Position numbers and translations under genes: made by a program. The notes under the pieces are model-generated. The model did no database searches. It saw only the letters and a list, made by a program, of their open reading frames with translations, and was not told the origin of the DNA. DNA of 64,000 nucleotides from Pleurocapsa sp. PCC 7319 (GTDB lineage Bacteria > Cyanobacteriota > Cyanobacteriia > Cyanobacteriales > Xenococcaceae): positions 1 through 64,000 of the forward strand of contig NZ_KB235920.1 in the NCBI RefSeq assembly GCF_000332195.1, given 5' to 3'. Below are positions 16,188 to 35,892 of the stretch, in pieces (the first letter of the stretch is position 1; each line of letters opens with the position of its first letter).

Positions 16188-19082
16188 TTACATTTGCCTT
16201 TGCATTAAATTAGCAAAGACTCCTGGAGTATTAACTAATTGATCAAAGCTACCCTGCTGAATAACTCTACCTGATTGCAATACATAAATGCGATTTGCTT
16301 TACGAATAGTACTAAGTCTATGAGCGATAACAATACGAGTTACCTGAAGTTTATCCAGGCTGTCGCTGACAATTGCCTGAGTTTTATTATCTAAAGCGCT
16401 TGTAGCCTCATCGAAGAAAAGAATATTAGGTTTGAGAACCAAAGCTTTGGCAATTAATAGTCGTTGTCTTTGTCCTCCTGAAAGATTGCCTCCTCCTTCA
16501 CTAATTACGGTGTGCATTCCCATAGGCATTTTGGAAATATCGTCTTTTAAACCGGCCATTCTAGAAGCATTCCAAGCTTCTTCCAGGTTTATTCGCGCCC
16601 CTCCAGCCAGATTATCAAAAATAGGACCTGACATAATTTTGCCATTTTGTAACACAACTCCTAATTGTCGACGAACAGCACTAATATCTAAACCAGTTAA
16701 ATCTTGACCATCGTAGTGAATACTTCCCTCTTCTGGGGTTTCAAAACCAAGTAGTAATCTTAGAAGTGTTGATTTCCCACTACCAGAACTGCCTACAAGC
16801 GCAATAAATTCCCCTGGCTCGATCTGAATGTTGATATCTTCTAGGGTAAGAGGAATGTCTGGGCGATAGCGAAATGAAACATGCTCAATGTTAATTCTAC
16901 CAATGAGTTTGCCTGGATCGGCTTTGGTAAGTTCTATCTCTGGAATTGTTTTTAAAATTGGTTGGGCACGATGCCATTGGGGAACAACTTCTAAAGTGTT
17001 TGTGACCGTATTACTAACGCTGGTGACCCCCTGAAGAAAGGTTCTAAATGCGGTATTAAAAGCTAAAAAAGTCCCGACTGTTAGACCAATTTGACCTTGG
17101 GTTTGAGCATCTGTGAGTAATTTAAGAGTAAACCAAAACAATACCCCAGAAATAATTGTCGGGATGACGGTATTAAATACTGCCACTATATCTTCTACCA
17201 GTTGAGTGCTTAATTCTAGCTGAATTTGCTGACTATAGTTTTTACTCCAAGCTGCAAAAGCGCGTTTTTCTGCCCCTGCTACCCTTAATTTGGATATGCC
17301 GTTGATTAGTTGAACAATCTGTCCGAAGATATTACCTTCAAGCTCTAGTAGAGGACGAACTTTGCGTACCAAAATGACACCAGAAATAGATGTTATGATT
17401 GCAACTATAAACGCCACAGCTACTGCAACTAAAGCCAATTTAACGCTGTAGTAAAATAGTAGTACTAAATTAAGTAACCCAAACAATCCTGTAATCAGTT
17501 GGATGAGAGTATTACCTCCTAAATGACGGCGAATAGTACTTACGGAACTGACACGAGACTGCAAGTCTCCAGTAGTATAATGACGGAAAAAAGATACTGG
17601 TAAGTTGAGCAGACGATCCCATACCGCAGCTTGGGTATAAGCATCAGAGGTTGTTTCTACTCGCAGTAAAGAGAACCCTTGGGTGAGTCGGAATAAGGAG
17701 ATAGCGATCGCTGCTAAAACTAAACCACCACCAATTTGTAAGAGTAATCCGCGATCGCTGTCGGGAATGGCATTATCGATTAGAATCCTCGTAGCATGAG
17801 GTGTTAGCATTCCTAATAATGTGGCTGCAATCCCTGTTAAAATAATTACTATGAGGTCTTTCACTCTACCAGAAAGAGCGAATCGCAGCACATCAATTAC
17901 ATTAAGAGCTTTATCGGGTAAAGAACGATAAAATATATATGCCATCGGGTTTAGAGTGACTGCATTTTCTTTGTTAACTAAAATACGAGTTTGAGTTGTG
18001 GGATCTAACATTTCATAGCGATCGCTTTTGACAGGCAAAAGTGCTACGGGTATTTCTTTTTTGTAAGCTACTAATGCCCCACAATCAGTCAACCACCATT
18101 TATCTCGAAGTAAAACCTGTCGCACTCGTAAACGAGAAGCACGAGCGATCGCTTCTAAAGGCTCTTTAACTCGATCAAGATCTTCTGAAACAGAAGGAGG
18201 TCTAATAGTAACTCCTAAAACTTTTCCCACTGCACCAGCAGCTACTAACAATGGTGCATCACCGCTCGATAGTTCGTTTGATTGGGACATCAAGGGCGAT
18301 GCTAACTCTCTTAAAGCAGTTACAGTTATTCGATTGTTGAGGCTTTCTCGATCTTTTAATCTCTGTAGTTCTTCAGTATGTTCTTGTTGAGTTTGAAACT
18401 TAACGTAATTGAGCAGCAGTTTATGGAGTTGAGATAAACCTAAAAGTAAAGTATTGGTATCTTGCAGTTTCTTGGTAGTATGAGTTGTTAACTGAACTGC
18501 ACCATCTGCTGATAACCACATTGCATCGTTGATAGGCATGGTTACAGTCGCATTAGTCAGTGTGAGTTCTTCCCAACCTAGCCAGCGTAAATAGCCCTGT
18601 TGAATCTTAATCCAAACCACCCTATCTGCTTCTGGTTGCCAAGTTTGACCGTTACTTAGAGAAAAGCGTTCCTGAGTTTCTGCTTTTACTTGAATTGGTG
18701 GCAGAGAAATAGTGGCAAGAACATCGCTAAATTTATCCAGCCAGTTTTTTATCCACGTGTCAACTCGAATATCTGCATTACTAACCAAGCAATTGAGAAA
18801 TTCTCGATCTAGTTTTAATAATTCTGTTTCACCAATTGGGACTGCCAGTATTTGACTGTCGGTTTTACCAAGACTAGGAATTGTACCAAAAAGAGCTTCA
18901 TTGGGTTCGCAGTTAAACAAATAACGGCGATTGCCCAGAATTAAATCATCTTGTACTGTTACCATAAAGATAGCGATCGCTCCAGTTCGAACTAACCATA
19001 CTGTCTGTGGATCGTTTAGCAATATCGGTTCGTTACCTCGTATTTTGGATATTTGTCCTGGTAAATCCTGTTTATTAATCAT
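16188..19082 (-). CDS. NHLP-type peptide export ABC transporter, permease/ATPase subunit
   Basis: This 964-aa protein is of the kind found paired with a C39-peptidase ABC protein in NHLP-leader RiPP clusters. The first about 380 residues are a soluble region, partly like a cyclic-nucleotide-binding fold, without peptidase motifs. Residues about 410-690 are a six-helix ABC exporter domain. The nucleotide-binding domain has Walker A (LVGSSGSGKST), signature (LSGGQRQRLL), Walker B (ILFFDEATSALD) and the H-loop (VIAHRLST). It is the last gene of the cluster, 18 nt downstream of its partner, and is expected to form a heterodimeric exporter with it. The assignment rests on length, architecture and context. 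Confidence 0.9.
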   Translation of the reverse strand: MINKQDLPGQISKIRGNEPILLNDPQTVWLVRTGAIAIFMVTVQDDLILGNRRYLFNCEPNEALFGTIPSLGKTDSQILAVPIGETELLKLDREFLNCLVSNADIRVDTWIKNWLDKFSDVLATISLPPIQVKAETQERFSLSNGQTWQPEADRVVWIKIQQGYLRWLGWEELTLTNATVTMPINDAMWLSADGAVQLTTHTTKKLQDTNTLLLGLSQLHKLLLNYVKFQTQQEHTEELQRLKDRESLNNRITVTALRELASPLMSQSNELSSGDAPLLVAAGAVGKVLGVTIRPPSVSEDLDRVKEPLEAIARASRLRVRQVLLRDKWWLTDCGALVAYKKEIPVALLPVKSDRYEMLDPTTQTRILVNKENAVTLNPMAYIFYRSLPDKALNVIDVLRFALSGRVKDLIVIILTGIAATLLGMLTPHATRILIDNAIPDSDRGLLLQIGGGLVLAAIAISLFRLTQGFSLLRVETTSDAYTQAAVWDRLLNLPVSFFRHYTTGDLQSRVSSVSTIRRHLGGNTLIQLITGLFGLLNLVLLFYYSVKLALVAVAVAFIVAIITSISGVILVRKVRPLLELEGNIFGQIVQLINGISKLRVAGAEKRAFAAWSKNYSQQIQLELSTQLVEDIVAVFNTVIPTIISGVLFWFTLKLLTDAQTQGQIGLTVGTFLAFNTAFRTFLQGVTSVSNTVTNTLEVVPQWHRAQPILKTIPEIELTKADPGKLIGRINIEHVSFRYRPDIPLTLEDINIQIEPGEFIALVGSSGSGKSTLLRLLLGFETPEEGSIHYDGQDLTGLDISAVRRQLGVVLQNGKIMSGPIFDNLAGGARINLEEAWNASRMAGLKDDISKMPMGMHTVISEGGGNLSGGQRQRLLIAKALVLKPNILFFDEATSALDNKTQAIVSDSLDKLQVTRIVIAHRLSTIRKANRIYVLQSGRVIQQGSFDQLVNTPGVFANLMQRQM

Positions 19083-19100
19083 TGGTCAATTTAATTTTAG

Positions 19101-21335
19101 TTATGTCAGTCCACTTTTAATCAACCGTGCGTAAATTCCTTTTTGTGGAGATAACTCTTCGTGAGTACCCCGCTGGACTATCTTGCCGCGATCGAGAACG
19201 ATAATTTCATCACAGTCACGGATAGTGCTTAGACGGTGAGCCACAATTAGACAAGTGCATCCTCTGCGTCTTAGGTTGTGGTCTACCATCTTTTCCGTTT
19301 CCGCATCCAAGGCACTGGTAGCTTCATCCATAATTAAAATCGAAGGATTATTCACTAAAGCGCGGGCGATTTCCAATCGTTGTCTTTGTCCGCCACTTAG
19401 ATTAGCTGCCCCCTCTAATAATTCTGCGTTGTATCCTCCAGGTAGGGATTGGACGACATCGTCAATCAAGGCATCTTGACAAGCCTGCTTGATATATTTG
19501 TCAGGGATAGTTGTATCCCAAAGAGTTAGATTATCTCTTACCGTTCCTGAAAACATCAATATATCTTGTTCAACCATAGCTAAAGAGTTAGTTAATAACT
19601 GGTTAGAGATTAGAGATTTTGGTTGATTGTCGAGCAAAATTTCTCCCGACCAAGGTTCGTAAAGTCCGCTAACTAATTTGGCAACGGTAGACTTACCAGA
19701 ACCACTACCACCAACTAGGGCAACTCTTTGTCCTGGTTTTAATTTGAGGCTAAAGTTTTCAACTAGAGGTGCCTCCAAACGACTATAGCCAAAAGTTAGA
19801 TCTTTTAATTCTAAGTGTCCTTCTAACTTGGGCGTTGATGAAATTTCTCTATTGTTTGCTTCTCTGAGTCGGTGCTCTAATCCTGTATCAGTAGGATTAT
19901 CTAACACATCATCCAGACGAATTAAATTACCATCTAATTCCTGAAGAGTTCTACCAAAACTTACTAAATTATTGACAGGCTGTTGAAAGTTTACCATCAT
20001 ACTTTGAAAAGCTACTAGCATCCCAATACTGAGATGCCCATCCATAACTCTCAATCCACCAACAGCAAGAAGAAAAGCTGTTGAGAGTGAAGACAACAAT
20101 ACGGGTAATACTGATAAAGTCTGGTTTGTAACTCCCAATTCCTGTTGAGAATTAATTGCTTTGGTGTAGTATCCTGACCAACGAGCGAAAATATCCGACT
20201 CTAAACCCGAAGCTTTAATATTTTCAATACTTTGTAGAGCAGCAATAGAGGTACCTGCGGCTTTACCATAGTCTTGAATTAATCGCTGATTAGCATCTTT
20301 ACGTTGGCGAGAAATCTTTTGAAGAGTGATTACATTAATCGCAGCAAAACCAAATACGATAACTGTCAATACCAAATCATACTGACTCATGACTATGACA
20401 TAAAAACCAAGCATCACTGTATCGATGATGGTGGTTGCTAACTGTCCTGAGAGAATATCGGCAACTTGATTGTTTAAATTAGTTCTATTACTAATTTCTC
20501 CTGCAAATCTTTGAGCATAAAAACTGACGGGAAGTCTTAAAATATGCCAGAGAAAACGACTCGACATTCCCACAGCCAGTTTGATTTTAAGACGACGTAA
20601 ATAGCGCAATCGCAATAAAGTTAAACCACATTGAAAGATAGCCGCGATCGCCATTGCTAATAGTAGGGGTCGCAGCCAATGTTGTCTTCCTTGAATTAAG
20701 ATTTCATCGATGAATACTTGAGTGAATACAGGAACTACCAACCCTACTAAAGTGAGTAAAAATCCCGCTAACATACAGTATGCCAGTGCTCCTGTTGTCC
20801 CTTTAAGTCGCGACCAGATAGCTAGCAGCATACTCGCTTTACGGCCGCCTTTTTTAAATTCTTTTCCTGGTTGGATTACCAGGACTACACCAGTGTATGC
20901 CTCGTCGAATTCCTGTAGAGAAACAGTGCAAGGTCCTGTAGCAGGATCGTTGAGATAAACTTTTTCTTTACCCCAACCTTCTACGACTAAAAAGTGATTG
21001 AAGTTCCAAAACACAATATAGGGTAAGGGAAGTTCTCGCAACTGAGCTAGTTCTTTTTTAAAGCCTTTAGCTTCCAACCCATAACGTCTGGCAGCTTTGA
21101 GCATATTCGAAGCTTTAGAACCATCCCTCGAAACGCCACATTCTCTTCGTAGCTCTGGTAATGGTACTATTTGACCGAGATAATACATAATTATCCCCAA
21201 AGTAGCAGCACCACACTCCACCGCTTCCATTTGCAGGAGAGTAGGAGTTTTGACGCGTCGCCGACGAGATGGCAATAGTTTCTGGAGTTGTTGCCAAGGA
21301 TTAGAGAGATTTAAAGTAGAATTAGTAGATACCAC
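19101..21335 (-). CDS. C39-peptidase ABC exporter of the NHLP bacteriocin type
   Basis: This is a 744-aa protein. Residues about 28-170 form a C39 double-glycine peptidase with catalytic Cys41 in MEAVECGAATLG, a His in FNHFLVVEGW and an Asp in YLNDPATG. A transmembrane exporter domain (about 190-470) and an ABC ATPase domain follow, with Walker A LVGGSGSGKST, signature LSGGQRQRLE and Walker B ILIMDEATSALD. This family cleaves leaders after GG (or GA) while exporting the core peptide. The three precursors at 29378-32115 all carry GG after an acidic, alanine-rich ELEAIAGG-like segment and are the likely substrates. Its start overlaps the HlyD gene by 14 nt. Confidence 0.93.
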   Translation of the reverse strand: MVSTNSTLNLSNPWQQLQKLLPSRRRRVKTPTLLQMEAVECGAATLGIIMYYLGQIVPLPELRRECGVSRDGSKASNMLKAARRYGLEAKGFKKELAQLRELPLPYIVFWNFNHFLVVEGWGKEKVYLNDPATGPCTVSLQEFDEAYTGVVLVIQPGKEFKKGGRKASMLLAIWSRLKGTTGALAYCMLAGFLLTLVGLVVPVFTQVFIDEILIQGRQHWLRPLLLAMAIAAIFQCGLTLLRLRYLRRLKIKLAVGMSSRFLWHILRLPVSFYAQRFAGEISNRTNLNNQVADILSGQLATTIIDTVMLGFYVIVMSQYDLVLTVIVFGFAAINVITLQKISRQRKDANQRLIQDYGKAAGTSIAALQSIENIKASGLESDIFARWSGYYTKAINSQQELGVTNQTLSVLPVLLSSLSTAFLLAVGGLRVMDGHLSIGMLVAFQSMMVNFQQPVNNLVSFGRTLQELDGNLIRLDDVLDNPTDTGLEHRLREANNREISSTPKLEGHLELKDLTFGYSRLEAPLVENFSLKLKPGQRVALVGGSGSGKSTVAKLVSGLYEPWSGEILLDNQPKSLISNQLLTNSLAMVEQDILMFSGTVRDNLTLWDTTIPDKYIKQACQDALIDDVVQSLPGGYNAELLEGAANLSGGQRQRLEIARALVNNPSILIMDEATSALDAETEKMVDHNLRRRGCTCLIVAHRLSTIRDCDEIIVLDRGKIVQRGTHEELSPQKGIYARLIKSGLT

Positions 21336-23298
21336 TGACCGACCTCAATAAAGGAATAACATAACTAATAGGTGACCTTTCCTCTACCTTGACGCGAGCA
21401 ATAGTTGTAGTTCCAGGGGAAATTTTTAAGTTTGGTCCAGAAGAAGAAGACCACCGATAGCCACTATAAGTATTGGCATCAGATTGCAGAGTAGCAGATA
21501 CTTGCATTAATCCCGGTCGGTCTTTTGACACTAAACCTTCAACCACTTCGGGATTGCCAACAATATTGGCAGCAGCTTCTTTCGTAATGGGAAAGGGTGA
21601 AATTCGCTTAACTTCCCCTATAATACCGCCAAATCTTTCTCTTTTAATTGTCTGAGGGGTAATTTGAATATTCATATCTGGCTGAATTTTTTTGCCATCT
21701 TCAACGGGAAAATAGGTAATTCCCACCATTTTGCCCCTTGGATTATCGATATCTATATTGGCAATACGATTGCCTGGCTGAACTACTTGACCGAGATTGG
21801 TGGTAATTTCTAAGATTTTGCCGTTATGTTGGCTAATAATTTGGCTATTATCTGTAATTTGTTCGGATAATCGAGCAATTTCTCGCTCAGTTTCCTGTAT
21901 TTCTTTAGTGCGGTTATTAGAATTTTCCCAATCTTGTTGGGCGAGATTAGCTTTTTTACTCCGAAGCTCTTGTAATTGAGCTTTAATATTTTTAATTTCG
22001 TTTAAATTTGAAAGATATTCTTTTAAAGCATCTGCTTCTTTGACATCTAGTTGCTTTAGTTGAGATTCAGCCTCGCTAATCTGGGCGGTGTTATCGAAAT
22101 ATTCTTGTCTCGCCTGCAAAAGTACGTCATCGGAGATTGCTCCTTCATCAAATAGCCTCTTTCGTGTCTTTAATCTTTGTTCAAAGGTGGGTAATAATTC
22201 CCTCAAAGTTTTTAAGCGAGTTTTAACAGCCTCGCGATCGCGTTCTATGGATACTAACCCTTTATCTCTTAAAGTTGGGGTAAGTTCTTCTAAAATGTTT
22301 AATCTTTGTTCTAAAGTCTGACGCTGTTCCGATATCGACTCTAAATCCCGATCTTGTCGTTGGTTTTGCAGCAGATTAATATCGCGATCTTGATTTTGTA
22401 ACTGAATTAATTTAGCTTGAGCTAATTCTAATTGTTTGCGAAGATCTATCTGAGCTATGGTAGCAATGACTTCTCCTTTTTTGACTTGATCTCCTGGTCT
22501 AATTTTGAGTTCTAATAATTGTCCCGTACTTTTGGCTTGAAGAGGCACGACTTTACTGGGAAAAATCAAAACACCTCGACCTTCTACCGTTACAGGAAGC
22601 TTCCCATAAACGCTCCAAATCCCTGCTGCCAATATTAAAGAACCAAGAGTCGCCAAGGGCAGCCAGCTTTTGGGATTGACTACCCGCATCAACAGGTCGA
22701 GTTTTTCGGGAGATGCCAAACGTTCTAGAGATTTTTGGCGAAACAATTTGCTTTCTTGAGGAGGCGATTGAGTAGAACTATTTTTTATTTGTATCTTGGA
22801 TGCTGGAGTTTCTAAAGTCGTTTGGGATTTATTCTGATGAAATTTTTCCCATAATCCTGGAGCTAAATGGAAATATCCTCTGTTTACTGAGTGAATTGCA
22901 TTATTTAACTCTTCTATAGGAGCATTTTTTAGTAAGTACCCCCTTGCCCCCGCATCTATAGCCCGATCAATATATTCACTGGTTTCGTGAGAACTAAGAA
23001 TCAAAATTCGACATTCAGGAAAGCGTTTTGAGATGATTCTGGTTACTTTGATTCCATTCATTCTCGGCATTTCCAGATCGAGCAGAATGACGTCAGGTTT
23101 TAATGACTCTATTTGCTCGATCGCGATTTCGCCATCTTCGGCAGTCCCTACTACTTCCAAATCTGCTTCAGTTTCTATTAACAGTTTAAGTCTCTGACGT
23201 ACTAAATTTTGGTCGTCTACAATTAGTACGCGAATCTTAAGACTACGAGAATTTTTATCTGAATTAGATGAAATTAACCTAACGATTTTATCGCTCAT
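21322..23298 (-). CDS. HlyD-type secretion protein fused to an N-terminal response-regulator receiver domain
   Basis: This is a 658-aa protein. Residues 22-140 are a complete receiver domain: acidic pair Asp28-Asp29, phospho-acceptor Asp74 in VILLDLEMPRMNG, Ser102 and Lys124 in GYLLKNAP. There is no DNA-binding domain. A linker, one transmembrane helix (about 211-232) and a HlyD/membrane-fusion body follow: a biotinyl-like half (PLQAKSTGQLLELKIRPGDQVKKGEV), a long coiled coil (about 275-480), the returning half (NGKILEITTNLGQVVQPG) and a beta barrel. HlyD proteins of NHLP systems bridge the ABC exporter to the envelope. The receiver should face the cytoplasm and could gate export by phosphorylation (inference). 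It overlaps the ABC peptidase gene. Confidence 0.9.
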   Translation of the reverse strand: MSDKIVRLISSNSDKNSRSLKIRVLIVDDQNLVRQRLKLLIETEADLEVVGTAEDGEIAIEQIESLKPDVILLDLEMPRMNGIKVTRIISKRFPECRILILSSHETSEYIDRAIDAGARGYLLKNAPIEELNNAIHSVNRGYFHLAPGLWEKFHQNKSQTTLETPASKIQIKNSSTQSPPQESKLFRQKSLERLASPEKLDLLMRVVNPKSWLPLATLGSLILAAGIWSVYGKLPVTVEGRGVLIFPSKVVPLQAKSTGQLLELKIRPGDQVKKGEVIATIAQIDLRKQLELAQAKLIQLQNQDRDINLLQNQRQDRDLESISEQRQTLEQRLNILEELTPTLRDKGLVSIERDREAVKTRLKTLRELLPTFEQRLKTRKRLFDEGAISDDVLLQARQEYFDNTAQISEAESQLKQLDVKEADALKEYLSNLNEIKNIKAQLQELRSKKANLAQQDWENSNNRTKEIQETEREIARLSEQITDNSQIISQHNGKILEITTNLGQVVQPGNRIANIDIDNPRGKMVGITYFPVEDGKKIQPDMNIQITPQTIKRERFGGIIGEVKRISPFPITKEAAANIVGNPEVVEGLVSKDRPGLMQVSATLQSDANTYSGYRWSSSSGPNLKISPGTTTIARVKVEERSPISYVIPLLRSVSGIY

Positions 23299-23359
23299 TT
23301 TAGGATGATAAGAAAATTAAAGACATTGTTTTTATCTTTGCAGCCAGAAAATCATCTTT

Positions 23360-24457
23360 TTAGCTGACTTTGGATTGTTCCAAGATCCAATCAAATCTTT
23401 TTCCAGCTAATGCCATTCGATCTAAAGCAACATTATTTAATTCATCAGCATATGTTTCGGTATGATCTAGAGAATCTCCCTTGTGATACATTCTCCTACT
23501 GTGAGCTAATCGAGATAACATCCCTTGCAGTCTATCTGCCGATAATGCGGAAATAGTTCGGTAGAAACGGGCTGCAAAGCTAATATCTTGCTGTAACTTA
23601 ACTGACAATAATGAGCGAGATATAAACAAAATAGTTGTATTTTTAGTGGTTGTAGCATTAATCGCAGACAAGCGGCCATCAACAAGAGCTGTCTCTCCAA
23701 TCGTTTCGCCTTGAGAGAGTTTTGCTATTTCAATTTCTGGGTTTGAGCTATTTTCGATCGCCGAGAAGATTCGAGTTAAAGGATTGCGTTTATCTTCGGT
23801 AACAGACAAAGATATTTGACCGCTAAGGATTATATAAAGTGCCTCTATGGGTCTACCTTCTTGAATTAAAGTAGTATTTGCCTTGATTTTTTGACGATCG
23901 CCATTAGCAATTAACCAATCGAGATCGCTATCATTGAGTTCGCCAAAAACATATAGTACATCTTTAATTGAATTGTCTGGAGCAATTTTACTGCGACCCA
24001 AGCGATTGATAATCGTTTCTAATTTATTGGCAAGTAAAATATTGAGCGCTTGATAAAATCGGGCTGCAAAATCAATATCTGATTCTAACTTAGCTTCAAT
24101 TTGTAACAGCGGAATAGACAAAATTTGTGAATTTTCTAGGGCTATAATATCCGTCATCGGAGGATGCAAATTAATCAAGGACATTTCTCCTACTACTTCG
24201 CCACTAGATAGACGAGCTATTTCTATTCCTGTAGTTGGCTGGTCGTCATTAAGCGCGATAAAAGCACGGGATAGAGGATTATTATCAATCTCAGATACAT
24301 AAGATCCTAAACTTCCTTCAATTAATATATGCAAGCAATCTAGAGATTTGCCAGCTCGAACAAGTTGAGTCCCCGAAGCTAGATCTTGACGGCGACCAGT
24401 CTTGAGCAACCATTCAATATCGCTATTATTTAATTCCTTGAGTAAAATTTCCGTCAT
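23360..24457 (-). CDS. Protein with two cyclic-nucleotide-binding domains
   Basis: This 365-aa soluble protein has two tandem cNMP-binding-like domains (about 10-150 and 175-315). Each begins with a D-x-x-WL segment, has a beta-roll core (GTQLVRAGKSLDCLHILIEGS; TLIQEGRPIEALYIILSGQ) and the phosphate-binding-cassette region GEVVGEMSLI or GETIGETALV. The canonical RxA arginine of the cassette is not evident, so nucleotide binding is uncertain. There is no helix-turn-helix or kinase domain. Such proteins are often found with NHLP exporters. It lies between the zincin-like and HlyD genes with short gaps, in the same apparent operon. Confidence 0.8.
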   Translation of the reverse strand: MTEILLKELNNSDIEWLLKTGRRQDLASGTQLVRAGKSLDCLHILIEGSLGSYVSEIDNNPLSRAFIALNDDQPTTGIEIARLSSGEVVGEMSLINLHPPMTDIIALENSQILSIPLLQIEAKLESDIDFAARFYQALNILLANKLETIINRLGRSKIAPDNSIKDVLYVFGELNDSDLDWLIANGDRQKIKANTTLIQEGRPIEALYIILSGQISLSVTEDKRNPLTRIFSAIENSSNPEIEIAKLSQGETIGETALVDGRLSAINATTTKNTTILFISRSLLSVKLQQDISFAARFYRTISALSADRLQGMLSRLAHSRRMYHKGDSLDHTETYADELNNVALDRMALAGKRFDWILEQSKVS

Positions 24458-24519
24458 GATTTTTCTCTCATGTTTTAATCTCTATAAGGGTCTAATTCTC
24501 CGCCCTTTGAAGCGTAAGT

Positions 24520-25659
24520 TTAATTTGAACAAGTTGATAGTTGAGATTCCATCTTCTTCTTTAGGTAATTGTGAGACGAGGCTAATTCTTCGATCGTCAC
24601 AGAAGTTAATGCCACAAGCATTGTTGTTTGATTTTCCGTAGTTTTTAGCTGGTGGGCATAGTTGCGGTCAAAATCTTCTAAATTTTCCGCTGCTGACTTT
24701 ACCAATTTTTGTAAAATCGTAAAAGCCCCTTCTGATAGTTGTCCGCGATAGTTTTGTAATCTTCCTCCTTCTCGATAATGGGGAAAAGACTCTAAACCCA
24801 TAAAGCGAAGAAACCAATCAGCTTTATAACTTCCTGTGGCAGCAACAATTCCTCTATAGTCGGCAATAAATTCGTCTAGCAGGTTATTTTGCATCGAATT
24901 AAAGACACGACGAGTAAAGTAATGAGTGCATTCATGCTCCAAGCGAATAGTTAAAGATAGACGCTTCCACTCTGTTTTTGATATTCCTAATTCTTCTGGA
25001 GCAACATTACTGTAAAAGCCATCGCTAAGAATGATAAATTTATCTTGATAAAGTTCTTTATGTGCAATCAGTTGTTTGAATGCTCTTGACCAAGCTGATT
25101 CTGAATTATCAATATTATTAGCCGACCATTTCCGACGATAACGACGAATTCTATCCCAGTTGTTGTAGCCAGCTACCATACAAGCTCCCATAGAATCGGG
25201 AATAGCTACTGGCTCGTTACGCTTTGTTATTGCCCTTACCAGAGATACAAAGTCTTCGCGGTTTGTAGTTAGTAATACAGGTATTTTACCTGCCAAACTT
25301 TGATGAATAGTTAACTGTAATTCTTCTGGCTTTTGTAAAATCAAACCATTCGTTAAATTAGGCTCAATTCCTTTAAGAGTTGCACCACGATAGGATGCAG
25401 TTTGACTAATACCCGATTGAATCGGAAATTTTAGCTGTACCAAAACATTCTTAAGGGTTTCCCAGCTACTTTGTGTTTTTGCTTGGGTAACATATTCTTG
25501 CCATACAGCTATATGAGATTCTGATGCTAAAGGAAACTGAGGTAAAGTTTTTATATCATTTTGCTGAAAAATATTTTGATTGTATGCCAACAGTTCTGCT
25601 ACCTCTTGTTCATCAGCATCAAAATCTCTCAATATTTTGGTACGTTCTTCTAGTTTCAC
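24520..25659 (-). CDS. Putative zincin-like (HExxH) protein of the RiPP cluster
   Basis: This is a 379-aa cytoplasmic-looking protein with no signal peptide. Residues 240-270 contain EHECTH (His242, Glu243, His246) followed by DEFIADYRG with Glu263, the arrangement expected of a gluzincin-type zinc site. The N-terminal about 230 residues are not recognised. It could be a leader peptidase or other processing enzyme, or an inactive relative. The motif is seen in the sequence and activity is inferred. The start codon overlaps the stop of the MinD-like gene (ATGA-type), so the two are translationally coupled within the operon. Confidence 0.65.
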   Translation of the reverse strand: MKLEERTKILRDFDADEQEVAELLAYNQNIFQQNDIKTLPQFPLASESHIAVWQEYVTQAKTQSSWETLKNVLVQLKFPIQSGISQTASYRGATLKGIEPNLTNGLILQKPEELQLTIHQSLAGKIPVLLTTNREDFVSLVRAITKRNEPVAIPDSMGACMVAGYNNWDRIRRYRRKWSANNIDNSESAWSRAFKQLIAHKELYQDKFIILSDGFYSNVAPEELGISKTEWKRLSLTIRLEHECTHYFTRRVFNSMQNNLLDEFIADYRGIVAATGSYKADWFLRFMGLESFPHYREGGRLQNYRGQLSEGAFTILQKLVKSAAENLEDFDRNYAHQLKTTENQTTMLVALTSVTIEELASSHNYLKKKMESQLSTCSN

Positions 25660-26447
25660 TTAATTTCTCCTGCCAGAACTGCTTCAGGTTTGCTAGCAAT
25701 TTGCTGGGAAATTTCCCTGATTGTCTGACTAAAAAAATGGTCGGGATGTCGCAAACAGAAGACATCACTGCTAGCGAGTTGAATAATATCTTCTGAAAGA
25801 GGAATAATTCCCGCAACGTCAGTTTTATAACTGCGTTGTACTTTAGTTATCAAGGCTGCAAAATCATAAGCAGATAGTACTTTATTCACTACCAGCAACA
25901 TCTTGGGAACTTGTAATTTACGGGCAACATCTACCGTTACCGCTGTACCTTGAAAATCTTGACTATCTGGACGGAAAATTACAACTAAAACGTCAGAAAT
26001 AGCGATCGATAACAAAGTTTCTTCGTTCAACCCAGGATGAGTATCAATTAATAGATAATCTAGTTTGAGGCAACGAATTAATTCCTGAAAACCGTCATTT
26101 AACCTACCAACGTCATAGCCTTCTCTTAAAACCCGAGAAATTTCTCCAGCTTTGATACTTGAAGGAATTAAATAGAGTTCGCCATCAACTGGTTCGGAAT
26201 TAAAAACACAAGTAACATCATAAGCAGCCTCTTGAATATTGCACTTGCCCCACAGATAGTCATTTAGAGAAAGATTTATTTGGTCTTCATCTAGCCCAAA
26301 AATAACGTGAATACCTGGAGATTGAAGATCGGTATCGATAATTCCTACTTTTTGTCCTTGTTGAGCCATAGTTGCAGCAACATTAGCAACCATATTTGAT
26401 TTACCAGTACCGCCACGGAATGAGTGAATTGAGACTATTTTGCACAT
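25656..26447 (-). CDS. MinD/ParA-family ATPase
   Basis: This 263-aa protein has a deviant Walker A motif (FRGGTGKSNMV, residues 10-20, with Lys16), a switch region containing GIIDTDLQSPG, and YLLIDTHPGLNEE as Walker B/switch II. It belongs to the MinD/ParA/CpsD group of dimerising ATPases that position or partition cargo at membranes. In this operon it could place the exporter or regulate the dCache sensor upstream (inference). The gene overlaps the zincin-like gene by 4 nt and follows the dCache gene by 36 nt. Confidence 0.88.
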   Translation of the reverse strand: MCKIVSIHSFRGGTGKSNMVANVAATMAQQGQKVGIIDTDLQSPGIHVIFGLDEDQINLSLNDYLWGKCNIQEAAYDVTCVFNSEPVDGELYLIPSSIKAGEISRVLREGYDVGRLNDGFQELIRCLKLDYLLIDTHPGLNEETLLSIAISDVLVVIFRPDSQDFQGTAVTVDVARKLQVPKMLLVVNKVLSAYDFAALITKVQRSYKTDVAGIIPLSEDIIQLASSDVFCLRHPDHFFSQTIREISQQIASKPEAVLAGEIK

Positions 26448-26483
26448 AATTTATAAACCTCTTGGAAAATTTAGAATATAAGA

Positions 26484-27902
26484 TTAATTACTTATGGTTG
26501 ACTGCTTCATTCTTAGCGCTTGCTGCTTTATTTGCTGGTAATATTCAGCTTCAATATTTCTGCCTACAGGAGATCTATTTCTGAGTCGTTGTGCTTTTTG
26601 TTGTAGTTGTTGAAAGTATTCTGTTCCTGTAACCGCTGCTACCTGACGTTCTCTTTTTACTTCATCAATTTCAAAATTTAGCTGTACTACCTTTTGCTTG
26701 AGCCTTTGTTCTTTAGCTTTGACTCGATGAGCCATATGGATAAATATGCGAACCAAACGCCCAATATCGTTTTGGTTATTGGCAAGTTTAAGCAAACGAT
26801 CAAATTCAAAGCTATCTTGTTCAATCGCTTCTGCCATTACCGAAAGTTCTTTGATTGGCTTAGTAATACTATGTGCCAAGACAATTGACAGAATTGACGC
26901 GATCGCACCAACAACTAGCAGATTCAGGCAGTTTTGCCACATTAAATATCTTAAAGGTGCAGTAAAATCGGTTTCAGAAAGGTTAATTCCCAATATCCAA
27001 GGCTTGATTGCTAAAGTAGCGAAACCGACTCTCTGACGTTGTTTCTCGGAAGAAGACTTATAGCTCAGATAACCTGATTTTGTTGTCCCTGCTATATCTT
27101 TAGCAAACTTTTTTAAATCTAGGCTAGCTATTTGGTCGCGGTTATAGTGTTGGTCGAATTTAACTTGTTTTTGCGTCTTCCTAGATGAATTACCCAGACT
27201 ATGATGTAGCAAAGATTTATTCGGATGGCTGGTAACTATGCCAATCTGATCGATTAAAAAAGCATAGCTTTTTGGGTCTAAATTTAACCTATTAAAAGTC
27301 TTGGTAATAAATTCTTCCCTTATTTTCATGACAGCCACACCGATAATTTTGCCAGTGGAGGCACGTACAGGATTAGCAAGATAAATTGCCGATCTTTGGT
27401 TAGTATTCTCGTTTAAGAAGTTAGAAATATAAATTTTTCCCTTCATTGCTTGACGAAAATACTCGTGAAAACCATAGTTATTGCCTATAAATGACTCATC
27501 AGTTGAGGCAACACATTCTCCGTTTGGATCTATCAGATAGACTGCATCATAGATCAAGCTAGAGTGAGTAGTATTACCCAAGAAGCCTTGTAAATTGGAC
27601 TGTATTACTTTCTGTCCCTGAATATTATTCGTCGATAAAAAAGCGCTCGCGTCACTTTCCTGACTAACTTGAACTACTATTTGCTGAGCATCAAGAATCA
27701 ATCGTTCCAAACGGCTGGCTTCGCGAGTTGCTAAAAGCTCTAGCTTTTGTTGTTCTAACTCTTCCGCATTTTTTAAGCCCTGATGCAGATTGTAAAAAGA
27801 ATTGAGGCTCATCGGTATTAATGCCAATGCTAGCAAGGCAGCAAGAACTTTTACTGTGATCGACCAAGCAGAAGGATAAAATAACCGATGTATACGTTTC
27901 AT
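26484..27902 (-). CDS. dCache-HAMP membrane sensor without output domain
   Basis: This 472-aa protein has one transmembrane helix at residues about 14-36. An extracytoplasmic double-Cache sensing domain follows (about 40-320; for example DAVYLIDPNGECVAS, IYLANPVRASTGKIIGV and SYAFLIDQIGIVTSHPN). A second helix lies at about 325-348, then a HAMP-like segment (SITKPIKELSVMAEAIE) and a charged coiled coil to the end. There is no kinase, cyclase or chemoreceptor signalling domain. The start overlaps the stop of the small upstream ORF. It may pass an external signal to the MinD-like, cNMP or receiver-HlyD proteins encoded next (inference). Confidence 0.85.
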   Translation of the reverse strand: MKRIHRLFYPSAWSITVKVLAALLALALIPMSLNSFYNLHQGLKNAEELEQQKLELLATREASRLERLILDAQQIVVQVSQESDASAFLSTNNIQGQKVIQSNLQGFLGNTTHSSLIYDAVYLIDPNGECVASTDESFIGNNYGFHEYFRQAMKGKIYISNFLNENTNQRSAIYLANPVRASTGKIIGVAVMKIREEFITKTFNRLNLDPKSYAFLIDQIGIVTSHPNKSLLHHSLGNSSRKTQKQVKFDQHYNRDQIASLDLKKFAKDIAGTTKSGYLSYKSSSEKQRQRVGFATLAIKPWILGINLSETDFTAPLRYLMWQNCLNLLVVGAIASILSIVLAHSITKPIKELSVMAEAIEQDSFEFDRLLKLANNQNDIGRLVRIFIHMAHRVKAKEQRLKQKVVQLNFEIDEVKRERQVAAVTGTEYFQQLQQKAQRLRNRSPVGRNIEAEYYQQIKQQALRMKQSTISN

Positions 27903-28069
27903 GTCAGAAAATTGCTAATTTCAGCAATTTCTAAACTTTGTTTTGCTTTAATTAATGCTTTGATAAAAGCTTGCTTGTCTTGCCAACCCTGACGAGGTAA
28001 AACCGAGCTGGAATCATCTGATTTTTGAGCTGCTGTGGCTACTTTATTTGGTATTTGATTAGAGTTCAT
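27899..28069 (-). CDS. Small 56-aa ORF between splicease and sensor genes
   Basis: The frame runs from ATG 28069 to TGA at 27901-27899. It begins MNSNQIPNKVATAAQKSDD and continues through LPRQGWQDKQAFIKALIKAK to the end. The stop overlaps the ATG of the dCache gene (ATGA), and the start lies 12 nt after the stop of the radical SAM gene, so it fits the operon exactly. The C-terminal half is probably helical. I recognise no family. It could be an accessory protein for the radical SAM enzyme, since the known PlpX needs a partner, PlpY, but I have no sequence support for equating them. Confidence 0.55.
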   Translation of the reverse strand: MNSNQIPNKVATAAQKSDDSSSVLPRQGWQDKQAFIKALIKAKQSLEIAEISNFLT

Positions 28070-28081
28070 CTGAAAAAATAT

Positions 28082-29341
28082 TTACTTTGCTAAAGCGTAA
28101 GCAGATTCAGAATTTTGCCAGTTTTCTGGCCACTGAATGTGATCGCTATTAAAATGAAGCAAATCGTTCTCTGGCAAAGGTGCGTTGAAAGGTTCTTCTA
28201 TAATGACAAATTCCCCATTATCAAAAGGATTCCCTTTTGCTTTTACTTTTAAATAGAATCTTTCTCTGATGTCTTTTTGTGCCTGTTTCAAAGCACGATG
28301 ATGGCAGTAGGGATTATTCCCACGGCGATCAAAGAAGACATGAGCCGTCCAAGAACAACCACCTCGACAGAGTTCAGCAAATTCACAGGTTTTACAAAAT
28401 CCCCACATGTGGTCTGTGCCCTGTTCAGTCCCAGCCTTCAGATTAAATTTAAGCTCTTCAGTCTGTTCGACTATTTCTCTTAAAGGGCGATCGCGGATAT
28501 TACCGCCCGTATAAGCAGCCGTAGGTAAAGAAGGACAACCTTTAATTTTGCCATCAGCTTCGATACCCAAGGTATTTAAACCCGCTCCGCAACCCTGCCA
28601 AAATGTCCATTCATCACTACCACGCAGCAGTCTTTCATAAGGGCCATAATAGCCAATATTATTTCCCGCCTGTATGCGAACACCTTCCTGTTTAGCTCGT
28701 TTAGCAACACGAGCTAACATGGGATAAATATCTAATAGTTCGTATGGTTGCAATAACATGTCTGCATTATCTGCCGCATTACCCATAGGTACAGTTAATT
28801 GAATCTGCCAAGCTCTTGCTCCAGCGTCCCTTATTCGTTCGTAAATTATTGGGAATTCAGAGGCAGATAAACGGTTTATCTGGGTATTGCAGCCAAAATA
28901 GATGCCGACTTCTTTTAGATGGCTCATGGTTCTAAAAGCAGAATGCCAAGCACCTTTTTTCCCTCGCTGGCGATCGTGGGTTTCTGGTATGCCACCATCG
29001 ATAGATACAGAAACTGTTTTAATTCCAGCTTCTTTCATTTTTCTGGCAGTTTCCAAACTGACACCAAATCCACCTGTAGTCATACCGCAGATCATCCCTG
29101 CCTCAGTAACAGCCTTGGCAATTTCTAGCCAATCAGAGCGCATAAAGGCTTCGCCACCGATTAGAGTAACCTCTTTGATTCCTACATCGGCTAGTTGCCG
29201 AACCAGATTAAAAGCTTCTTCTGTAGATAGTTCCTTGGTTCTTGCCTGCCCTGCTCTCGAACCACAGTGACTACAAGCTAGATTGCATTTCAAGGTAATT
29301 TCCCAAACTGCATAACTAACTCGTCTGTATTTTTTAGTCAT
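28082..29341 (-). CDS. plpX-like: PlpX-like radical SAM/SPASM enzyme (putative splicease)
   Basis: This 419-aa protein has the radical SAM motif CNLACSHC (Cys19, Cys23, Cys26) right at the N-terminus, an SAM-binding TLIGGEAF, and a C-terminal SPASM region with cysteines in QGCGAG, GKIKGCPSLP and FCKTCEFAELCRGGCSW for auxiliary iron-sulphur clusters. It fits radical SAM maturases associated with Nif11-type precursors. The characterised member PlpX excises tyramine from an XYG motif, leaving an alpha-keto-beta-amino acid. The two upstream precursors each contain one XYG (LYG, MYG), which supports this activity here. It is immediately downstream of the precursor genes (36 nt). Confidence 0.85.
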   Translation of the reverse strand: MTKKYRRVSYAVWEITLKCNLACSHCGSRAGQARTKELSTEEAFNLVRQLADVGIKEVTLIGGEAFMRSDWLEIAKAVTEAGMICGMTTGGFGVSLETARKMKEAGIKTVSVSIDGGIPETHDRQRGKKGAWHSAFRTMSHLKEVGIYFGCNTQINRLSASEFPIIYERIRDAGARAWQIQLTVPMGNAADNADMLLQPYELLDIYPMLARVAKRAKQEGVRIQAGNNIGYYGPYERLLRGSDEWTFWQGCGAGLNTLGIEADGKIKGCPSLPTAAYTGGNIRDRPLREIVEQTEELKFNLKAGTEQGTDHMWGFCKTCEFAELCRGGCSWTAHVFFDRRGNNPYCHHRALKQAQKDIRERFYLKVKAKGNPFDNGEFVIIEEPFNAPLPENDLLHFNSDHIQWPENWQNSESAYALAK

Positions 29342-29377
29342 TTATCTTATTGTCTGTTAAGTTATTTAATCGAGATT

Positions 29378-29686
29378 CTATATTGGTAAACCATACAGAG
29401 GTCTGATAGGAAATAATGGTTCTTCATCTAATAACTCAAAAATAGATAAATCAACTCCACCACTTACCGCCGTTAATTCTGCTTCACTTAATTCACCATT
29501 ATTAGATTCAGATGTTGCTAAAATCTGCTCTTTAGCAATTTCCCATTCTTGATTTGTAAATTCAAAACCAGCAGCTTGGATAATTTTCTGACGTTCTTCT
29601 GCTGAAGCTGTATTTTCGAGTTGAGTACGAAATTGCTTATCCGTAGATACTCGTTCATAAAATGATTTTGCGTTTTCGATAGACAT
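29378..29686 (-). CDS. plpA-like: Nif11-leader RiPP precursor with LYG splice motif (precursor A1)
   Basis: This is a 102-aa precursor. Residues 1-77 are a Nif11-type leader (MSIENAKSFYERVSTDKQFR, later AAGFEFTNQEWEIA) ending in ELTAVSGG. The core of about 25 residues starts VDLSIFELLDEE and ends PIRPLYGLPI, so an XYG site (Leu-Tyr-Gly) lies four to six residues from the C-terminus. A PlpX-type enzyme would remove tyramine from it. A GGAG ribosome-binding site sits about 8 nt before the ATG. It is one of two tandem paralogues upstream of the radical SAM gene. Confidence 0.85.
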   Translation of the reverse strand: MSIENAKSFYERVSTDKQFRTQLENTASAEERQKIIQAAGFEFTNQEWEIAKEQILATSESNNGELSEAELTAVSGGVDLSIFELLDEEPLFPIRPLYGLPI

Positions 29687-29797
29687 AGTTTTTCTCCATA
29701 ATTTACGGACTTTTCTTTAAAGGATGAAAACCTTTGCAAAGCTTATTATTTTTGGCTATTTTAGAGAAGGCACTCTTTAATAGCCAAAGGCTAAGTA

Positions 29798-30094
29798 TTA
29801 TCCCCCCCACCTAGGCCAAGGAAATTCATTATCCCAAGGAAAAACTACGCCATACATTGCTGCTACAGCACCACCTGCGATCGCTTCAAGTTCTTCTTCA
29901 TTCAATTCCTCATTAGACCTAGCAGCTTGAATTTCTGTCATCGCTTGCTGCCATTCCTCGGCAGTGAAATCATAGCCAGAGTCTTTAATTAGTTGTTGGC
30001 GTTCTTCTTTAGATAATTCTGCTTCAAATGGTGTGCGAAAGGATGCATCATCGGTCATTCTTTGGTAAAAAGCTTTTGCACTTTCAATAGACAT
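29798..30094 (-). CDS. plpA-like: Nif11-leader RiPP precursor with MYG splice motif (precursor A2)
   Basis: This is a 98-aa precursor. The Nif11 leader (MSIESAKAFYQRMTDDASFR, DSGYDFTAEEWQQAM) ends in ELEAIAGG. The 23-residue core begins AVAAMYGVVFPW and ends in FPWPRWGG. It has one XYG site (Met-Tyr-Gly) near the N-terminus of the core and is rich in Trp, Pro and Phe. The C-terminal part differs strongly from paralogue A1 while the leaders are alike, as expected for substrates of shared enzymes. A strong AGGAG lies 7-8 nt before the ATG. Confidence 0.87.
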   Translation of the reverse strand: MSIESAKAFYQRMTDDASFRTPFEAELSKEERQQLIKDSGYDFTAEEWQQAMTEIQAARSNEELNEEELEAIAGGAVAAMYGVVFPWDNEFPWPRWGG

Positions 30095-30228
30095 GAGTCT
30101 TTCTCCTGGATTATTAATTAATTGGACAAATTTTTACTATTCAATATGAAGCTAGAGAATAGTTATTCGGTCGTAAACTATGAAAAGTAAAATTAAGCTT
30201 CAATGAAATTATGCTAAGAAAATAGCGA

Positions 30229-31686
30229 TTATTTTAGCTTTGGCTCATCGTCCAAAACTCCTTTCTCAAACATCAGATTAAGATAATAATTTGTGAAAGC
30301 GGAAGAAATGTTATTTTGTTCAAGAATAGAAACAATTTCTCTAGCAGTTCTGTTACCCTTGTGAATAATTGCACCTAATTCACGAAGAGAAAAATCATGT
30401 TTGAACTTAAAAGTTTTAAATTTAGTTGTTAATTGAAAACCATCTTCAAAACTTTCATATCTAAGATCGCGACGAAAATTAATGACATCATTTGGTTTGA
30501 TTGTTAGAGACATATTATCCCTTATCATTCTTTCAAGAAGAGCTTTCAGCTCATCAATATCATCAAAAGTTCCCTCATCATACGTTATATAGCCTAGAGG
30601 CCAGCGTTCATTTGCATTACAAGGACTTATGAGCTTAACACTGCGGTCTACCATGTTAAATAAAAATCCAGACACACAAGCAATTGTTCCCTGTTCAGGA
30701 AATTCGTCATCTTCTTCTCCTCTGCTGATATTTCTTTCACGTACTCTTCCACTATTGGCTTTGTTTTTTTTTGCTTCTTTATTTTGGAGAACCAAATTTA
30801 CAAAAGCTAACTCCTTAGCGCTAAATTCTTTATGGACTCGATCAAGCATATTCAAAGAAAGAATAGAAAATCTATTAAGCGGACACCCTCTTTCTCTGGA
30901 AAGCTTTAGAAGTGAACGAGTACGAGCAATATCTTTAAGAGGTTGTGCAGTAGTAGTTTGAGGGAACAAACCAAAAGTTTCATAAAAATCGAGACAAAAT
31001 TTTTCATAATCTGGGTTGTCAAGTGGATCGCTTGCCCAATAACAAAAACCAGCACCAGCAGACTGCCCCAGGGTTTCTTTCATTAATTCCAGTACTTCAC
31101 GCCATAATTGCGCATTCTCTGAATTATATAAAAAGATATCGCCCAGACGAGGAGCAGAGACACCACAAAACCAACATCCAATCGAACATCCTTTACTAAG
31201 TTCAAATGAAACTGGAGCGTGCATAATTGCATCTTGTACTCCTTTTTTAAACTGACTTGTAGTACGAGAGATTTGTTGTTCACGCCATGCTTTATAATGG
31301 GGTTCAATTGAAGCAGCAGCAATAGATTTTAGTCGTTTAAGTTCTTTAGAACTTTCAGTTTGTTTTGAAGATTGTTTTAGATTCGTGAAAATGTTGGCTA
31401 ACTCACTATTCTTTTTACTACTATTTTCTTCCCATAAAGGTTCAACTTCATTTAAATTAACTTGTAAGCCATGATAATTAATAGCTTCATAAGGTTTAGC
31501 AGATACCCAACTTTGAAAAGATGGATCTGCTGTCCATCTTTCTAAAAAACGCTTTATATTACTTGCACGTACTATTTTAAACTCTTTAGGATTCTCTAAT
31601 TTTGTATTTCGGTTATCCTTAGTACAAGAAATAACCTTATCTGAGTTACTATTAGAAATATTGATTTTGGTTACCATATTTTTCAA
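30229..31686 (-). CDS. plpD-like: PoyD-type radical SAM peptide epimerase
   Basis: This 485-aa protein has the CxxxCxxC motif CSIGCWFC (Cys167, Cys171, Cys174) after an about 160-residue N-terminal extension, as in RiPP-maturation amino-acid epimerases of the PoyD/OspD/AvpD/PlpD family. These enzymes convert L-residues to D-residues by hydrogen abstraction at C-alpha and use a cysteine as hydrogen donor. The conserved region with FCYWASDPLDNPDYEKF follows the motif. It lies between the NHLP-leader precursor (upstream) and the two Nif11 precursors (downstream), so any of the three could be its substrate. Confidence 0.88.
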   Translation of the reverse strand: MKNMVTKINISNSNSDKVISCTKDNRNTKLENPKEFKIVRASNIKRFLERWTADPSFQSWVSAKPYEAINYHGLQVNLNEVEPLWEENSSKKNSELANIFTNLKQSSKQTESSKELKRLKSIAAASIEPHYKAWREQQISRTTSQFKKGVQDAIMHAPVSFELSKGCSIGCWFCGVSAPRLGDIFLYNSENAQLWREVLELMKETLGQSAGAGFCYWASDPLDNPDYEKFCLDFYETFGLFPQTTTAQPLKDIARTRSLLKLSRERGCPLNRFSILSLNMLDRVHKEFSAKELAFVNLVLQNKEAKKNKANSGRVRERNISRGEEDDEFPEQGTIACVSGFLFNMVDRSVKLISPCNANERWPLGYITYDEGTFDDIDELKALLERMIRDNMSLTIKPNDVINFRRDLRYESFEDGFQLTTKFKTFKFKHDFSLRELGAIIHKGNRTAREIVSILEQNNISSAFTNYYLNLMFEKGVLDDEPKLK

Positions 31687-31779
31687 AAAAAGCTAACGAG
31701 TAAATATTAAAAGTTCTTAGCTATTACTTGTTTTTTACTGCAAGCAATAGCTACACTTATAATTGGAAAAAGAGAGTAT

Positions 31780-32115
31780 TTAATTTGAATCTGAACCTAC
31801 TATAGCTCCTTCATCATCATTCGTAACAAAATACCATCCTCCTGCAATAGCTTCTAATGCTTCATCAGACAACTCTTCTGAAACATCAGGTTTTTTTGGT
31901 ATGACTAGATAGTAAGTATCATTAGATTCTTCAAGGACTTGAATATTTGTAGATTCTGGTATTTCTTGATTAAATTCACTCGCAAAAACTTTTCTAGGAT
32001 TGCTCATTAATTCTTGTCTAAAGTCATCATTTTGCCAGGCTTTTGCAACTAAAGTTGCTTCAATTTCAGTTCTTGATTTTTGAGAATTTTGATTTGCGCC
32101 TTGTTGGTTTTCCAT
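31780..32115 (-). CDS. NHLP-leader RiPP precursor
   Basis: This 111-aa protein has a nitrile-hydratase-alpha-like leader: a helix with EATLVAKAWQNDDFRQELMSNPRKVFASEF, then IQVLEESNDTYYLVIPKKP, and ELSDEALEAIAGG. The predicted core after GG is 18 residues, WYFVTNDDEGAIVGSDSN. It has no XYG motif, so it should not be a splicease substrate; epimerisation by the adjacent PoyD-type enzyme is possible. It is the first gene of the minus-strand cluster. AGAGGA lies about 12 nt before the start, and a 241-nt AT-rich divergent promoter region precedes it. Confidence 0.85.
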   Translation of the reverse strand: MENQQGANQNSQKSRTEIEATLVAKAWQNDDFRQELMSNPRKVFASEFNQEIPESTNIQVLEESNDTYYLVIPKKPDVSEELSDEALEAIAGGWYFVTNDDEGAIVGSDSN

Positions 32116-35859: not shown

Positions 35860-35892
35860 GTCAAACCTCTTGTTCAAAATATGATTTTGCAA

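Follow-up and report, generated by a model that had tools for sequence, protein, structure and literature searches.

Probable identity of the block as the plp gene cluster

The stretch of DNA analysed here (the window) covers 64,000 nucleotides of the genome of Pleurocapsa sp. PCC 7319 (7,386,997 bases in 10 contigs). Its minus-strand gene block at 16188-32115 is very probably, at roughly 0.85 for identity and biosynthesis together, the plp spliceotide/proteusin cluster of this strain, the prototype of its kind, whose primary report reportedly appeared in Science in 2018. The biosynthetic half of the block has thus been described before, as the prototype spliceotide cluster. The sensor (dCache-HAMP), MinD-like ATPase, DUF7005 and cyclic-nucleotide-binding (cNMP) genes of the block form a general module of NHLP export, which is separable from the splicease. 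Furthermore, the HlyD adaptor of the exporter carries an N-terminal receiver domain, and a direct phosphorylation switch on secretion is proposed tentatively on that basis.

The identity of the cluster was derived from the precursor cores and from published accessions. The Nif11-leader precursor at 29798..30094 (minus strand; TIGR03798, 72.0 bits, cut-off 32.3) had the core AVAAMYGVVFP... after GG, with the splice site M-Y-G and Met at core position 5. The published PlpA3-M5G splice tag, AVAAGYGVVFP, differed from this core only by the engineered G (available text of PMC10533398). The Met at core position 5 therefore marked 29798..30094 as PlpA3, and the second Nif11-leader precursor, at 29378..29686 (minus strand; TIGR03798, 70.7 bits, cut-off 32.3; splice site L-Y-G), was named PlpA2 by elimination. 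The core of this candidate ended in ...PLFPIRPLYGLPI, and the published splice tag PLFPIRPGYGLPI agreed with it except for the engineered G; the splice tags derive from PlpXY precursors of Pleurocapsa sp., as stated in the accessible part of the same paper (PMC10533398). In addition, the accessions printed in the accessible part of a review (PMC11002830) are WP_019503879.1 for PlpY, WP_019503880.1 for PlpX and WP_019503883.1 for PlpD. Two numbers are absent between PlpX and PlpD, which leaves room for exactly two precursors, as in the gene order of the window. The cores, enzyme families and accession order of the plp cluster of Pleurocapsa sp. PCC 7319 (PlpA2, PlpA3, PlpD, PlpX and PlpY) all agreed with the block, and no difference was found in what the available parts of the papers print on these three points. 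That the strain-level identity, although strongly inferred, draws on two published core motifs and the accession order is the point to be held against this assignment. An earlier reading of the DNA made from its letters (the sequence-only reading) had described a splicease/epimerase cluster with a PlpX-like enzyme. The cluster type stood, and the wording proved too weak, since the cores and accessions point to the published plp prototype itself.

PlpX (28082..29341, minus strand, 419 residues) was a SPASM radical SAM splicease by its family score, with 824.4 bits for TIGR04103 against a cut-off of 725. A different maturase subfamily, an outcome that the sequence-only reading had named as contrary to its proposal, was ruled out; the next-best model, TIGR03913, gave 395.3 bits, below its own cut-off of 591.75. 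A search of solved structures with PlpX reached no closer match than distant radical SAM enzymes. The 56-residue open reading frame (ORF) directly downstream of PlpX (27899..28069, minus strand) is, by this position, the candidate for PlpY, the truncated RRE partner of PlpX. It had no family match in profile scans. A contig scan for PlpX relatives gave 198 matching stretches, of which the best 79 loci were kept, ending at 10 kb flanks or at contig ends, and ORFs related to the PlpY candidate were present in 15 of these 79 PlpX loci.

PlpD (30229..31686, minus strand, 485 residues) was a PoyD-type radical SAM peptide epimerase (TIGR04517, 617.8 bits, cut-off 325) with the CxxxCxxC motif CSIGCWFC. 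It shares this family with the PoyD-type proteusin epimerases, and no difference from them was found. The available text of one review states that PlpD is active and converts L- to D-residues (PMC11002830), and that of a further paper counts it among the characterised epimerases (PMC8326336). Likewise, the loss of tyramine (135 Da) by PlpXY on an engineered PlpA3 is reported in the accessible part of PMC10533398. Since the literature already covers both activities, recognising the plp prototype largely spares the co-expression work that had been proposed. According to these partly available papers, the precursors would be modified by PlpXY splicing and by PlpD epimerisation.

The third precursor (31780..32115, minus strand, 111 residues) belonged to another leader class, NHLP (TIGR03793, 89.0 bits, cut-off 50.9), so that the three precursors of two leader classes named in the sequence-only reading were recovered. 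The putative label PlpA1 is ours. Its core after GG was WYFVTNDDEGAIVGSDSN and contained no XYG motif; it is therefore no predicted substrate of the splicease, and it may be a substrate of the epimerase. After residue 60, an XYG motif was found in 118 of the 124 ORFs of the 79 PlpX loci that matched PlpA2 or PlpA3 best, and in 2 of 16 such ORFs from loci without intact PlpX. The latter control consisted of 15 chosen loci, among which L118, which holds a PlpX fragment, contributed no ORF. The count looked past residue 60 only, and an ORF of 70 residues in L059 that was scored as lacking the motif has LYG earlier. In the window's own genome, seven Nif11 leaders scored above the cut-off. Four of these precursors were read, and XYG was present in both plp precursors and in neither of the two at a second NHLP locus, on contig C4.

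Gene block and NHLP exporter

The block comprised 13 ORFs, all on the minus strand, with gaps between neighbours of −14 to +134 bases. In the order of transcription, they encode the NHLP precursor, the PoyD-type epimerase, the two Nif11 precursors, the TIGR04103 radical SAM enzyme, the 56-residue ORF, the dCache-HAMP sensor, the MinD-like ATPase, the DUF7005 protein, the double cNMP protein, the receiver-HlyD fusion, NHLP ABC1 with its C39 domain and NHLP ABC2. Every gene that the sequence-only reading had named was present in this one block according to the family scores, which were far above chance and ruled out chance or mis-annotation. The block is probably a single operon. Matches to promoter and terminator consensus sequences at the block showed no excess over shuffled sequence, and the operon is for this reason proposed from strand and spacing. 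No tRNAs and no RNA families at gathering thresholds were found.

ABC1 with the C39 leader peptidase (19101..21335, minus strand, 744 residues; TIGR03796, 1169 bits, cut-off 853.3; PF03412), ABC2 (16188..19082, minus strand, 964 residues; TIGR03797, 1019.6 bits, cut-off 709.4) and the HlyD gene were adjacent, each above its curated cut-off. To judge from these families, the C39 domain of ABC1 would cut the leaders at the double-glycine site, and the product would exit via ABC1/ABC2 and the HlyD adaptor, crossing the outer membrane through a channel whose gene lies elsewhere. The NHLP bacteriocin export cassette described by Haft et al. in 2010 (TIGR03794/03796/03797; PMC2887384) shares ABC1 with C39, ABC2 and HlyD with the window, as far as the accessible part of that paper goes. 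Unlike the adaptor of that cassette, the HlyD of the window carries an N-terminal receiver, and the sensor, MinD-like and DUF7005 genes are unmentioned in the accessible part of the account. By title, nothing describing the export module or the receiver-HlyD fusion was found in the open-licence literature, which is weak evidence of absence.

A general module beside NHLP exporters

Four genes lay between the PlpY candidate and the receiver-HlyD fusion, all on the minus strand. They encode a dCache-HAMP membrane sensor (26484..27902, 472 residues; PF02743, 79.3 bits; PF00672, 27.8 bits) with two transmembrane-like segments by hydropathy, a MinD/KGGVGR-like ATPase (25656..26447, 263 residues; PF13614, 67.7 bits; TIGR01969, 90.7 bits, and NF047398, 83.2 bits, both below cut-off), a DUF7005 protein (24520..25659, 379 residues; PF22541, 556.9 bits, cut-off 27) and a double cyclic-nucleotide-binding transport-associated protein (23360..24457, 365 residues; TIGR03896, 301.4 bits, cut-off 161.05). 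The roles ascribed below to these four proteins in the locus are putative, and the module as a whole would control export.

The distribution of these genes was followed both from PlpX and from DUF7005. By tblastn of the window proteins, the dCache, MinD-like and DUF7005 genes occurred together beside PlpX and a PlpY-like ORF in at least six of the 79 PlpX loci (L005, L007, L013, L025, L028 and L047), a lower bound because contig ends cut many of the loci. The cNMP gene was also present in five of the six, and L005 is cut by a contig end. This co-occurrence is what would be expected if the export and sensing genes were dedicated to spliceotides and had coevolved with PlpX. In the phylum, DUF7005 was found in 19 of 386 genomes, 10 of which held the 12 full-length sites. 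Eleven of these 12 sites, counting the window, had NHLP exporter genes; the exporter of G376 was read from L028, taken as the same contig because length and gene order agree, that of the C4 site in the own genome lay about 25 kb from DUF7005, and a portion of that of G129 lay some 10 kb beyond (L158). The sole full-length site without an NHLP exporter nearby was that of G251 (L116), and the NHLP locus elsewhere in this genome (L180) held a 60-residue ORF with a 21-residue DUF7005 match. A thirteenth site, in G064 (L124), was truncated and lay among NHLP exporter genes.

Intact PlpX was present at two of the 12 full-length sites, the window and G376. At nine of the 11 exporter-linked sites, and hence at nine of the 12, no intact PlpX was found within the stretches examined, L118 holding a fragment only. 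In G406, the MinD-like, DUF7005, cNMP, receiver-HlyD and ABC genes were 73-87% identical to those of the window and the sensor 50%; no match to PlpX was found in this genome, where the only Nif11-like piece lay at one edge of the stretch and lacked XYG. Moreover, PlpX above cut-off was found in just 5 of the 27 genomes of the window's family. The dCache-HAMP, MinD-like, DUF7005 and cNMP genes are thus a general NHLP-export module that is separable from the splicease. A splicease-dedicated module was ruled out by genome context, its remaining probability being very small. The sequence-only reading had taken the module as the cluster's own, specific to peptides with beta-amino acids and D-residues; this claim was not supported, as the same module also lies in NHLP loci where no intact PlpX was seen, the one on C4 among them. 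Where the maturases at DUF7005 sites were family-scanned, a LanM-type gene was found at C4 and a PoyD-type epimerase at G129. As a separate observation, the ORF L118:12237-12581, between the module and the exporter, encodes a 46-residue PlpX fragment of 71% identity, as if the splicease gene had been lost.

The second NHLP locus of the same genome (G000:C4:308500-358499; L117, L155 and L156) shared the dCache, MinD-like, DUF7005, cNMP, ABC1 and ABC2 genes with the window, together with a receiver-HlyD gene 58% identical to that of the window and a receiver-AraC gene. It differed in a permease-like gene between the sensor and the MinD-like gene, in a LanM-type gene (PF13575, PF05147), in a histidine kinase gene adjoining the sensor (L117:2681-3784), and in having no PlpX above cut-off. 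The permease-like gene encodes about 870 residues with weak similarity to Trp/Tyr permeases and was present at this position in nine of the 11 other loci with that gene order (L007, L013, L025, L028, L047, L115, L117, L118 and L119); it was missing from L005, L113 and the window. A receiver-AraC response regulator (PF00072, PF12833) is also encoded in the window, at 33380..34159 on the minus strand, 1.26 kb upstream of the block, with a plus-strand ORF between the two. Five further loci with the module (C4, L184, L028, L025 and L005) have a receiver-AraC gene 48-55% identical to that of the window; the window's may be a transcriptional regulator of its locus.

DUF7005 protein

The DUF7005 protein of the window had the motif RLEHECTHY..NN..DE.IADY, with a HEXXH sequence. 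RLEHE[CS]THY with the downstream NN and DE.IADY was found in 17 of 17 aligned rows, which amount to 16 distinct ones, as L028 and L114, of equal length (35353), probably represent a single contig. Eight distant picocyanobacterial relatives (L172-L179) all had the varied form RLEHEL[TA]H with a downstream DE..AD. The simplest reading is that DUF7005 is a metallopeptidase-like protein. The zincin-like protein of the sequence-only reading was accordingly borne out at the level of the motif alone (the conserved HEXXH and the downstream acidic residue); the AlphaFold2 model had a predicted local distance difference test (pLDDT) score of 44.6, too poor for use. No paper containing the name DUF7005 was found in the open-licence literature.

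A function in maturation and not in export control, whether as an oxygenase of the HEXXH type or as a further leader protease, is a serious alternative whose chances fall somewhat short of even. The conservation of HEXXH with NN..DE.IAD in close rows and of its varied form in distant ones would suit such an enzyme, and HEXXH oxygenases are known in pathways of ribosomally synthesised and post-translationally modified peptides (RiPPs), according to the available text of PMC12636437. Moreover, two of the eight distant relatives, L172 and L173, adjoined ABC exporter genes that aligned with ABC1 along its full length, and one of these two relatives was also next to eight Nif11-class ORFs; in the remaining six, no ABC1-like exporter was seen within 17-20 kb. 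Against a maturation enzyme, DUF7005 stayed together with the genes of the sensor, the MinD-like ATPase and the cNMP protein in loci both with and without PlpX, and the fold prediction was not usable for this assignment either.

Receiver-HlyD fusion

The receiver-HlyD fusion of the window (21322..23298, minus strand, 658 residues; PF00072, 103.6 bits; TIGR03794, 415.3 bits, cut-off 156.2) consisted of a NarL-like receiver at residues 24-135, a transmembrane-like segment from about residue 212 by hydropathy and an NHLP-type HlyD adaptor at 193-652. The receiver is predicted to face the cytoplasm. Fusions were searched with the window protein in the 27 genomes of the family, and with the window protein and a stand-alone fusion, each in turn, in 291 genomes of the order. 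The candidates scored per genome were up to 45 in the family search and the first three to four in the order, stand-alone-fusion and sensor searches.

Three classes of fusion were distinguished. Class 1, beside NHLP ABC1/ABC2, was found at seven sites in six genomes with 59-100% identity to the window protein. Class 2, of about 660 residues, was adjoined by a large ABC gene in seven of seven loci fetched, and the one ABC protein of this class that was scanned had cNMP, C39 and ABC domains. Class 3, of about 757 residues, stood alone, with no exporter gene adjoining in the five loci fetched; it was present in 26 of the 27 family genomes with 57-100% identity, and the 27th, a 78% complete genome, had a contig-edge fragment. 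The class 3 protein of the own genome has 757 residues with the receiver at 36-148 (G000:C7:424107-426377; L193:9108-11381). Outside the family, the class 3 orthologues among the matches listed had mostly about 500-650 residues and matched from query residue 176 or later, past the receiver. Similarly, in the order search with the window fusion, none of the matches listed outside the family started before residue 140, the receiver being at 24-135.

Longer HlyD proteins were tried as further fusions and rejected. The N-termini of HlyD proteins of 770-786 residues in three genomes of family f13 (L199:2421-4763, L200:3617-5977 and L201:3103-5415) gave no receiver match, nor did the long HlyD ORFs of G021, G129, G320 and G314 from the phylum search. 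By eye, the N-terminal extension of the f13 class 3 HlyD proteins had a peptidoglycan-binding-like repeat and a transmembrane segment. In another genome of the window's family, a NarL-like receiver was fused to a different membrane protein that was not HlyD-like by BLAST (L203:2514-4385).

Conservation of the receiver and possible gating of secretion

The receiver of the window had intact residues D28, D29, D74, S102 and K124. Among 19 aligned fusions, from which L186 was left out as its gene is in pieces, the acceptor Asp was present in 18, the S/T and the Lys in all 19, and the second acidic residue in 17. The median identity over 171 pairs was 50% for the receivers and 21% for the HlyD parts, the receiver being higher in 144 pairs; HlyD values around 20% come from sequences that are difficult to align. 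For the 125 pairs with HlyD parts below 35% identity (median 19%), the receivers still had a median of 47.5%. This identity and the retention of Asp and Lys suggest that selection has acted on the receiver as a catalytic domain.

A histidine kinase encoded elsewhere would phosphorylate the HlyD receiver, and the phosphorylated adaptor would gate type 1 secretion directly, not through transcription. Such direct gating is proposed from the conserved receiver residues and is, in our estimate, rather doubtful. The wider proposal is equally tentative: a NarL-type receiver may have become fused to a type 1 adaptor in the common ancestor of the family, such fusions now serving several secretion systems, including NHLP/RiPP exporters; phosphorylation would open or close secretion, and the NHLP sensing module, with a sensor that bears a Nif11 leader in some relatives, would couple the detection of a signal or of the exported peptide to the exporter. 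Several observations speak against these proposals. Five of the seven class 1 sites were in the window's own genus. Twelve HlyD sites of the family, 43-48% identical, matched only past the receiver, whereas seven had it, so that an adaptor of this type can do without a receiver. The acidic pair was changed in two of the 19 fusions and the acceptor Asp was missing in one. In addition, no relative of the C4 kinase was found among the window ORFs of at least 80 residues, the family scan covering part of the window ORFs, and no kinase or other output domain was found in the dCache sensor.

The receiver may instead be a structural or localisation domain, serving dimerisation or the docking of the MinD-like ATPase or an ABC protein, with no phospho-switch; this alternative has an appreciable chance of being correct, well short of even. 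It would readily account for the Ala that replaces the second acidic residue in two fusions and for the acceptor Asp lacking in one of the 19, as well as for the class 3 orthologues outside the family, among the matches listed, with no receiver in the match and for the 12 family sites matching past the receiver. It is at odds with receivers that kept 47.5% median identity where the HlyD parts fell below 35%, and with the Asp and Lys kept in 18 and 19 of the 19 fusions. If direct gating by the adaptor were true, two-component signalling would act on the secretion channel itself rather than on gene expression; the accessible part of PMC8277102 describes two-component control of efflux gene expression. 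The conserved module and the receiver-HlyD fusion make it directly testable when and why such peptides are secreted.

Nif11 leaders on sensors

In a metagenome-assembled genome of Nostoc indistinguendum, the dCache-HAMP sensor (L005:10194-11903) began with a Nif11 leader ending in the double-glycine sequence AIAGG. The sensor of G167 (L113:6608-8422) likewise had an N-terminal Nif11 leader, and in G389 (C34) and G428 (C37) the sensor match extended over the leader. The sensor search in 291 genomes gave 18 matches in 16 genomes, of which three covered the leader (G167, G389 and G428) and 15 started after it. Within 40 residues after GG, no XYG was found in the L005 and L113 sensors, and an LYG came only much later in the sequence, within the dCache domain. 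A leader on the sensor, possibly recognised by the C39 domain of the exporter, might tie the two proteins together physically, which is offered here as an idea only.

Surroundings of the block

Directly downstream of the exporter genes, a protein of 1211 residues with many WD40 repeats is encoded at 12410-16045 on the minus strand. On the other side, a contractile-injection-type cluster lay on the plus strand at 43060-63998, with Pvc16_N, two tail sheath, gp19-like tube, two baseplate-J and Tail_P2_I proteins, and with an eCIS core domain protein at its end, at the window edge. The region 62001-64000, over the gene of this eCIS core domain protein, had a strong AT skew of 0.368. Between the block and the contractile-injection genes, an RTX/DUF5648 protein (34594-35892) and transposase genes (38160-38855 and 40721-41431) were encoded, all on the minus strand.

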